Below are positions 9,964 through 11,724 of a stretch of DNA of 64,000 nucleotides, piece after piece. Location: NCBI GenBank assembly GCA_030684405.1, contig JAUXYA010000009.1, positions 1 through 64,000 of the forward strand, written 5' to 3'. This DNA comes from Burkholderiales bacterium (lineage in GTDB: Bacteria > Pseudomonadota > Gammaproteobacteria > Burkholderiales > SG8-41). Position 1 is the first letter of the stretch; each line of letters opens with the position of its first letter. The notes beneath the pieces are model-generated. The model had not been told where the DNA came from, did no database searches, and saw only the letters and a list, made by a program, of their open reading frames with translations. A program made the position numbers and the translations under genes.

Positions 9964-10135
9964 GCGATGTTCTCCCGGCGTTGGGTCGGTGACGATGGAC
10001 GGCGCCGGAACCGTGGGGGTTCAGCTGCCGAAAAATGCATGGTTCACCAAAATGGTCGGCGTTATTCTGTATTCAGGGCGCAATTTTAACGTGTTGCGTA
10101 ATCCTGAACGTTCGCATCCATGACAGGAGGTGAGA

Positions 10136-10702
10136 ATGGCGCGCATAAGTTATGTGACACCCGAGGCCGTGACCGACCCACAGATCCGGTGCTGGCTTGA
10201 TGACGCAATTGCCGCGGGCCGTCCCGGTCCGGAGAACCAGGCCATCCGCGCCCACCAGCCCGACGTGATGCGCTCTTTCACGCTGACCCGCGAGATGCTC
10301 TTCGACAACGGTGCTGGCGTCGTCGAGCATGACCTGAAGGAGATGCTGCGCGCCTATATCGCCTTCACCATCGAATGCGGCTACTGAAGCAATCAGGGAA
10401 CCGCGCGGTCGGCGCGGGAAGCGGACAGCAGGATGGCAGAACTGATGCAGTACGAGAAGTCGGACCGGTTCACGTCGCGCGAGAAAATCGCGCTACGTTA
10501 CGCTGATGCGATCATGTACGATCCCAACCAGGCCGATGACGCGATGTGGGTGGTATTGCGCGCCGAGTTCAGCGAACCGCAGTTGGTCGAACTCGGTTAC
10601 TGGATCGGTTTTACCTTCGGCGGGCAGCGCTGGCTGAAGACGCTGTCGGCGAAGCAGGGCGAACTCGCTGCCGCGATGGCTGGCCGGCGCGCTCCGGAAT
10701 AA
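10136..10702 (+). CDS. CMD/AhpD-like protein with in-frame TGA (candidate selenoprotein)
   Basis: One frame runs from the ATG at 10136 (AGGAGG at 10125-10130) to the TAA at 10700-10702, interrupted only by TGA at 10385-10387. Read through, it gives 188 residues of the carboxymuconolactone-decarboxylase/AhpD-like superfamily: LKEMLRAYIAFTIECGY, then TGA, then SNQGTARSAR. Relatives carry a CxxC pair here (for example CEYCGNQ), so TGA stands exactly at the second cysteine, giving C81-G-Y-U84. Nineteen bases after TGA, a six-base-pair hairpin presents GGTC in its loop. The family does thiol redox or peroxidase-like chemistry. Alternatives are a nonsense mutation or sequencing error (TGC to TGA). 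The C-terminal half shows no other lesion and normal codon use. Confidence 0.75.
10401..10417 (+). promoter_or_regulatory. SECIS-like hairpin downstream of in-frame TGA
   Basis: CCGCGC (10401-10406) pairs perfectly with GCGCGG (10412-10417) around the loop GGTCG (10407-10411). The loop begins 20 bases after the TGA. The E. coli fdhF SECIS also has GGUC in its loop, about 19 bases after UGA. A well-defined lower stem is not evident. Confidence 0.55.
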
Positions 10703-10707
10703 AAAAA

Positions 10708-10748
10708 GGGGCGGCAATCGCCGCCCCCCTGTCGCCGTTTGCGGCTTT
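10708..10748. terminator. Convergent terminator pair
   Basis: GGGGCGGC (10708-10715) pairs with GCCGCCCC (10720-10727) around AATC. The run of seven A before it becomes a U-tract for the minus-strand receptor gene. Just downstream, GCCG-TTTG-CGGC followed by TTTTTT (10734-10748) serves as the plus-strand terminator of the CMD gene. Confidence 0.8.
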
Positions 10749-10749
10749 T

Positions 10750-11724
10750 TTATCGTGCGGTCAGACCGGCTGCCTGCACCACCGGGCCCATGGTCTTGAT
10801 CTCGGACTCGACAAAGCGGCGGAATTCCTCAGGCGTGTTGGTCACCACCTCGGTCATCTGCTGCTCGAAGAGCCTGCGGAAATCAGGATTCTTCGTGGTT
10901 TCGATCAACAGTTCCCGTACTTTGGCGAGCACTGCCCGCGGAGTCTTCACCGGAGCCAGCAGGCCGTTCCAGCCGCCGTACTGGTAGCCCGGCACGGTTT
11001 CCGCGACCGCCGGCAGATCCCCCAGCAGCGCGGTTCTGGCCGGCAGGGTGTGTGCGACCGCGCGCAGCTTGCCGCCCTTGACCAGGCCGGCTACCGCAGG
11101 CGCAGGTGTGATCGTCCACTGCGATTCGCCTGCAACGACGGCTGCCACCGAGGGACCGCCGCCCTTGTAAGGCACATGTAGGGCTTCGGATTTTGCAATT
11201 TGCATGAACAGCACACCGGCGAGATGGCTCTGAGAGCCGACGCCCGCGGATGCCATGTTCGCTTTGCCGCCGCGGCTGTTGTTGTACTCGATCAGTTCAT
11301 TGACGGTTTTGATCGGGAGCGAAGGGTTGACCACCATGATGTTCGGCGTATTGCCGAAGAGCGAGATGAAGGCATAGTCCTTCAGCGGATCAAAAGGCAG
11401 TTTCTTGAAGATATGCGGTCCGATGACCATTGCCGCGGTGGAAGCCGAGAGCAGGGTGTAGCCGTCTGGCTGGGCGTCCTTGCCGATCTCCATGCCGATC
11501 AGCCCGCCGGCACCGGCGCGGTTGTCGACGACAACCTGCTGCTTGGCAGCGGCGGTGAAGGCGTTGGCGAAAATCCGTCCCAGCGTATCGACGGAACTGC
11601 CGGCGGCATTGGGCACGATGAGGCGAATCGGCCGGATCGGGTAATCGGCAGCCAATGCGGATGGGGCCACAGCAAATCCCAGCGATGCGGCCAGCAAAAT
11701 GGTGAAATTGCGTGTAAAGCGCAT
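10750..11724 (-). CDS. Bug/TctC-family periplasmic substrate-binding protein
   Basis: 324 residues: a Sec signal peptide at 1-25 (ends ALA-AD), then the receptor fold with PIRPIRLIVPNAAGSSVD, VVDNRAGAGGLIGMEIG, DGYTLL and HVPYKGGGPS segments. GGAGGAC precedes the ATG. It is a single-gene unit with its own U-tract terminator at 10708-10727 and no TctAB partner nearby, so it is an orphan receptor whose ligand is unknown, probably a carboxylate. Confidence 0.93.
   Translation of the reverse strand: MRFTRNFTILLAASLGFAVAPSALAADYPIRPIRLIVPNAAGSSVDTLGRIFANAFTAAAKQQVVVDNRAGAGGLIGMEIGKDAQPDGYTLLSASTAAMVIGPHIFKKLPFDPLKDYAFISLFGNTPNIMVVNPSLPIKTVNELIEYNNSRGGKANMASAGVGSQSHLAGVLFMQIAKSEALHVPYKGGGPSVAAVVAGESQWTITPAPAVAGLVKGGKLRAVAHTLPARTALLGDLPAVAETVPGYQYGGWNGLLAPVKTPRAVLAKVRELLIETTKNPDFRRLFEQQMTEVVTNTPEEFRRFVESEIKTMGPVVQAAGLTAR

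Follow-up and report, generated by a model that had tools for sequence, protein, structure and literature searches.

This locus raises the question of whether positions 10136-10702 encode one protein with selenocysteine (Sec) at an in-frame TGA, two small proteins, or the remains of a broken gene. The window, i.e. the whole 64-kb stretch of DNA that was analysed, carries the following features here, all on the forward strand:

10125..10130, +, Shine-Dalgarno-like AGGAGG; the ATG at 10136 starts 5 bases later (read from the sequence)
10136..10702, +, putative selenoprotein gene, 188 amino acids with Sec84, predicted AhpD/CMD-fold CxxU oxidoreductase (frame, relatives, constraint, fold)
10340..10342, +, codon of Glu69, 12 residues before Cys81, candidate general base (conservation; E in 32/32 clade members)
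10376..10378, +, codon of Cys81, first residue of the CxxU pair (C in 32/32 clade members)
10385..10387, +, TGA, probably recoded as Sec84, second residue of the CxxU pair (TGA in 31/33 relatives)
10401..10417, +, predicted bacterial SECIS hairpin CCGCGC-GGUCG-GCGCGG with GGUC in the apical loop (folding, covariation, synonymous constraint)
10731..10745, +, terminator-like stem followed by TTTTTT, downstream of the gene (consensus scan only)

The reading frame and its TGA

The earlier note had described a single frame broken by TGA alone and had expected an ordinary annotation to split it. Both points hold: 10136-10702 is open except at 10385-10387, and a mechanical ORF list returns the region as two ORFs, 10130-10387 and 10433-10702. 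Between 9900 and 10800, no sigma-70-type promoter was found, and a consensus scan gave three terminator-like sites compared to 1.0 expected in shuffled sequences. A lone TGA in an otherwise open frame is also what would be left if a CxxC gene had recently lost its second Cys by a nonsense mutation, or if the assembly were in error, and 50 TGAs in the 64-kb window have long open frames (>80 codons) on both sides. The relatives of the gene bear on this explanation.

Conservation of the TGA and constraint on the protein

A scan of genome contigs, which finds close relatives only, yielded 36 relatives. The site is covered in 33 of these; L045-L047 do not cover it and were dropped from the site counts. 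The site codon is TGA in 31 of the 33, TGC in one (L041) and TGT in one (L042), and pairwise protein identity inside the TGA clade goes down to 70%. Since 31 other genome records have TGA at the same codon, a sequencing error is very unlikely. The 31 TGA relatives share the start position, with MAR or MAH as first residues. Within the clade, E69, C81, Y83, U84 and the SNQG directly following the TGA are kept in 32/32 members, giving the motif C-x-Y-U-S-N-Q-G. The prediction that homologues have Cys at the TGA site was borne out by the two close relatives with TGC or TGT and by all 12 distant stop-free single-gene relatives whose codon was read.

The median dN/dS relative to the window gene was 0.085 (28 pairs) for the part before the TGA and 0.105 (29 pairs) for the part after it, pairs with saturated dS being excluded from these medians (2 before and 1 after, of 30). 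L035 has an insertion and was therefore excluded from the dN/dS and synonymous counts. Over the 11 codons directly 3′ of the TGA the median was 0.16. Strong protein constraint is thus similar on both sides of the TGA. This similarity, the sharing of the TGA position by 31 relatives with identities as low as 70% and the compensated stem changes described below argue against a recent nonsense mutation or an assembly error, which we consider extremely improbable. Alternatively, translation could stop at the UGA and restart at the ATG at 10433, producing two separate or coupled small proteins that correspond to the two ORFs of the mechanical list. The codons that would then remain untranslated after the TGA are the conserved ones (SNQG and the 11-codon dN/dS given above), the Cys-codon relatives are single continuous frames, and by eye no good ribosome site precedes 10433. 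We therefore regard two proteins as highly improbable. Judging from the sequences compared, 10136-10702 is almost certainly a functional selenoprotein gene.

According to the record titles, the clade occurs mostly in uncultured Burkholderiales, and the records of the two Cys relatives, L041 and L042, are titled Acidimicrobiia and ‘bacterium’. Seven further records (L014, L017, L029, L032, L040, L043 and L038) are titled Bordetella parapertussis or Chitinophaga pinensis. These titles look wrong; the genes are close kin of those of Burkholderiales MAGs.

A conserved hairpin downstream of the TGA

The predicted hairpin consists of the stem halves CCGCGC (10401-10406) and GCGCGG (10412-10417) and the loop GGTCG (10407-10411). 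It had been placed nineteen bases after the TGA. This distance is correct for the loop, which begins after 19 bases, but not for the stem, which begins after 13. The likeness in spacing to E. coli fdhF was confirmed, as the GGTC of K-12 fdhF starts 18 bases after its TGA compared to 19 here.

In a single sequence, such a signal carries little weight. A stem of at least 6 pairs in the searched range was found at 21 of the 50 comparable TGAs in the window, 10385-10387 included, and the RNA fold has a z-score of −1.55; 13 of 200 shuffled sequences fold equally well or better. The hairpin or the open frame alone was rejected as proof for these reasons: the single-sequence signal is not clearly in excess of chance.

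Comparison between relatives raises the observation far above chance. Every stem pair is kept in all 32 rows of the alignment (28 distinct), while slid controls are 20-64% paired. In L034 and L035, one stem pair each has changed on both sides, i.e. by compensation; in either case one of the two changes replaces an amino acid (Arg by Leu; Ala by Val). We also compared 20 chosen sequences from five subfamilies in the same hairpin register. All 120 cells pair in this chosen set, 34 of them through a change on both sides, compared to 38-49% in slid controls. This set was chosen after the folds were seen, with L034 and L035 put in deliberately, and it omits the L094 site at 856, the paralogue L058 and near-duplicates; the hairpin at L094:856 is shifted by 2 and that predicted for L058 lies in another register. 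Two of five measures on the cross-subfamily set do not exceed shuffles, namely pairs changed on both sides (195/500) and pair types (157/500).

Synonymous variation points in the same direction. In the Sec clade, the six hairpin codons have a value of 0.08, the lowest of 165 six-codon windows (rank 1), with a mean of 0.42 for 11-codon windows. For the 11 sequences of the Cys clade, the value of these six codons is 0.35 (rank 14 of 165), with a mean of 0.47 for 11-codon windows, and the 11-codon window at the hairpin codons ranks 6 of 160. As variation is low in the Cys clade too, part of the constraint may not stem from the hairpin. From these comparisons we infer that the hairpin is under selection as RNA.

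Selenocysteine machinery and further candidate selenoproteins

The earlier note had tied its reading to the presence of selA, selB, selD and a selC tRNA. All four were detected in the window's own assembly, which comprises 37 contigs and 3.74 Mb and is 99.4% complete: selA with 585 bits, selB with 434 bits, selD with 424 bits and the tRNA-Sec, with anticodon TCA, at 76 bits. The selD gene has an in-frame TGA of its own in the motif SHGGGU. By its gene content, this genome can be expected to insert selenocysteine. UGA might instead be read as another residue (Trp or Cys) via a suppressor tRNA, as readthrough is needed in either case. The presence of tRNA-Sec, selA, selB and selD in the genome, the stop-free relatives with Cys rather than Trp, and the fdhF-like spacing and GGUC loop of the hairpin make a suppressor very unlikely and favour Sec.

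The same genome carries further candidates. Paralogues on contigs C27 and C35 are also of the CxxU type with TGA. The one on C27 (L056, 47499-47984, minus strand) contains GCHYUMAHN and a hairpin with a GGTCT loop, lies near a Bug/TctC-type frame and is a clear match to the debrominase Bmp8 (1.5e-21). Directly 3′ of the paralogue L058, a PrdB-like frame on C35 (L114:2459-3691, plus strand) has an in-frame TGA (SPVUPNCTC) with a predicted hairpin and matches TIGR04483 at 7.3e-27, below the cut-off; these are likely two adjacent selenoprotein genes. Contig C6 has a formate-dehydrogenase-type frame (ARIUHSSS) that scores 141 bits to TIGR01591, below the cut-off of 666. By eye, the bases after its TGA can pair as CCCC-GGTCT-GGGG; energy minimisation of the 42 bases gives a different hairpin. 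The genome thus probably has Sec in three AhpD-like proteins, a PrdB-like protein, a formate-dehydrogenase-type protein and SelD.

Distribution, family tree and gene neighbourhood

In a sample of the order, 29 of 399 genomes have a match to the protein. Copies of 77-99% identity, with one TGA each, occur in 13 genomes, and copies of 53-56% identity, all with TGA, in seven; one copy of this second clade (G242:C93) has an additional TAG. A group of 35-41% identity has no internal stop, and its fetched members include the 12 Cys forms mentioned above. The 12 order-search loci L060-L071 were taken to be the same records as loci of the contig scan, L034 and L035 among them, and are not independent. 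Of 398 genomes sampled from the phylum, none but the window's own matched at 1e-20.

The selA gene was found in 19/19 order-sample genomes with a TGA-bearing match compared to 109/399 overall, a comparison not corrected for kinship. Among the genomes with only stop-free matches, 7/10 have selA; it is absent from G143, G144 and G356. Among the 33 close relatives, selA was discarded as a discriminator, as a match was found in 33/33, both Cys-form genomes included; in one of these two, the match is a fragment below the cut-off.

A family tree of 74 members, built with the active-site columns left out, contains 54 sequences with Sec, 14 with Cys and 6 with Phe at the site. The fewest changes of site state are 3, a rough count, as the tree was built by a quick method, drew long-branch warnings and is weak at 32 of its 71 inner branches.

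Some loci carry several family members. Six genomes (L095-L100) have a CSYU or CVYU copy adjoining a second copy without Cys or Sec (AGD-x-Y-F). By sequence the two resemble a catalytic subunit with a non-catalytic partner, perhaps forming a heterodimer. L094 (G100:C17:500-4500) contains three members in 4 kb, a Cys form, a CTYU form and a CEFU form, the last on the opposite strand and with its hairpin shifted by 2 bases.

Next to the window gene lies a Bug/TctC-type gene (10750-11724, minus strand), and such a gene is found within ~1 kb in 22 of 33 loci. Since Bug/TctC-type genes seem to be plentiful in these genomes, no function was deduced from this neighbour. In 6 of the 33 loci (L014, L020, L021, L022, L031 and L038), a GntR-type match lies upstream and ends ~80-100 bases away, which is suggestive only as a functional clue.

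Predicted fold and function

The AlphaFold model of the window protein has a mean pLDDT of 89.5, with lower means around the motif (67 for residues 81-90 and 63 for residues 91-100). The predicted model shows the all-helical AhpD-like fold of the AhpD/CMD superfamily, and its best 38 fold matches are AhpD/CMD-type structures, including 2prr, 6k40, 3c1l and Bmp8. The Pfam CMD model (PF02627) gives no match to the window protein at E ≤ 1 and matches 62 of the 74 family members at E ≤ 0.01. The window protein scores 26.9 bits to TIGR01926 (cut-off 81.8) and 50.1 bits to NF053654 (cut-off 310), a model that matches all 74 collected family members at E ≤ 0.001. It lies under the cut-off of every NCBIfam model that it matched.

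Selenol/thiol redox catalysis is suggested by the Cys-x-x-Sec motif and the Glu 12 residues before it; this Glu69 position is E in 66 of the 74 family members, R in 7 and C in 1. The product is likely a CxxU redox enzyme, and homology somewhat favours hydroperoxide or thiol chemistry as its main role. In the mechanism that we propose, SelB carrying Sec-tRNA(UCA) would bind the GGUC-loop hairpin at 10401-10417 while the ribosome is at the UGA (10385-10387). Insertion of selenocysteine would then produce an AhpD/CMD-fold oxidoreductase with Cys81-Gly-Tyr-Sec84. By homology, the selenolate of Sec84 would attack an oxidised substrate, most likely of the hydroperoxide or disulfide type, and Cys81 would resolve the intermediate as a selenenylsulfide. 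A cellular thiol system might reduce the selenenylsulfide, with Glu69 aiding proton transfer. The role of Glu69 as general base and those of Sec84 and Cys81 are assumed by us in parallel with the catalytic residues of AhpD. Taken as a whole, the explanation of a functional gene, SECIS-directed Sec insertion and an AhpD/CMD redox enzyme is very highly probable in light of the comparative data.

On the other hand, the selenoprotein might be a Bmp8-like reductive dehalogenase that abstracts halogen by its selenolate, and not a peroxidase. Among solved structures, the family profile matches the debrominase Bmp8 best (1.7e-23), with Sec84 aligned to the second Cys of its CxxC, and the TGA-bearing paralogue on C27 of the same genome matches Bmp8 clearly, as given above. 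Bmp8 dehalogenation resembles that of deiodinase, a Sec enzyme. The window protein alone, however, matches Bmp8 only weakly (E 0.33), and the fold match to the peroxidase-related 2prr is at least as good; a dehalogenase is unlikely on this balance. It would be a speculative and doubtful further step to see a Burkholderiales radiation of CxxU AhpD/Bmp8-like selenoproteins, with several subfamilies (three copies here), some of them forming obligate pairs in which a Sec subunit joins a partner with neither active-site residue, and with dedicated selenolate chemistry, e.g. reductive dehalogenation. Were this true, the family would be a bacterial counterpart, in another fold, of the action of deiodinase. 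The preferred reading remains a redox enzyme acting on hydroperoxides or thiols.

Comparison with known systems

The earlier statement that Sec in the CxxC of AhpD-like proteins had been reported from metagenome surveys was accurate. According to the parts of the papers used here, the 2005 Sargasso Sea survey lists CxxU AhpD-like selenoproteins as new (27 sequences, COG2128; PMC1088965), and the GOS survey of 2008 lists 299 ‘AhpD-like 1’ and 70 ‘AhpD-like 2’ sequences, all of the CxxU type (PMC2398784). A 2026 review, likewise used in part, places AhpD-like selenoproteins under TIGR01926 (PMC13188914). The proposal of a new redox selenoprotein candidate is therefore supported as to the selenoprotein, but its kind is not new, having been in print since 2005 according to these same parts. 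In the portions of literature text that were searched, the subfamily of the window gene was not recognised.

The window protein shares with the AhpD-like selenoproteins (COG2128/TIGR01926) the AhpD type, Sec as the second Cys of the motif (CxxU) and the existence of Cys homologues. A bacterial SECIS directly after the UGA is found in these selenoproteins and is likewise predicted in the window gene. It differs in lying far below the TIGR01926 cut-off and in forming its own clade among the sequences compared here. The model NF053654 (GroundWater_YciW, ‘YciW-related (seleno)protein’) allows for Sec by its name, and the window protein is a distant match to it. With Bmp8 (PDB 6ohi, 6ohj), the AhpD/CMD fold is common and the CxxC is in line with the CxxU of the window protein; in contrast, Bmp8 uses Cys and is 17-18% identical to the window protein over the fold match. 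Bmp8 acts in a pathway of brominated products, according to the part of the source used (PMC7918430). The hairpin region after the UGA resembles the SECIS of E. coli fdhF in bearing GGTC, whereas the stem sequence and the host gene differ. The match between a SelB and its SECIS can depend on the species.

A gene split by a plain ORF list thus becomes one, and a conserved clade of putative selenoproteins is revealed. Occurring in Sec, Cys and ‘neither’ forms, this small fold offers a clean set for studying the chemical contribution of selenium. No curated model fits the window protein, and its clade extends a known kind of selenoprotein.
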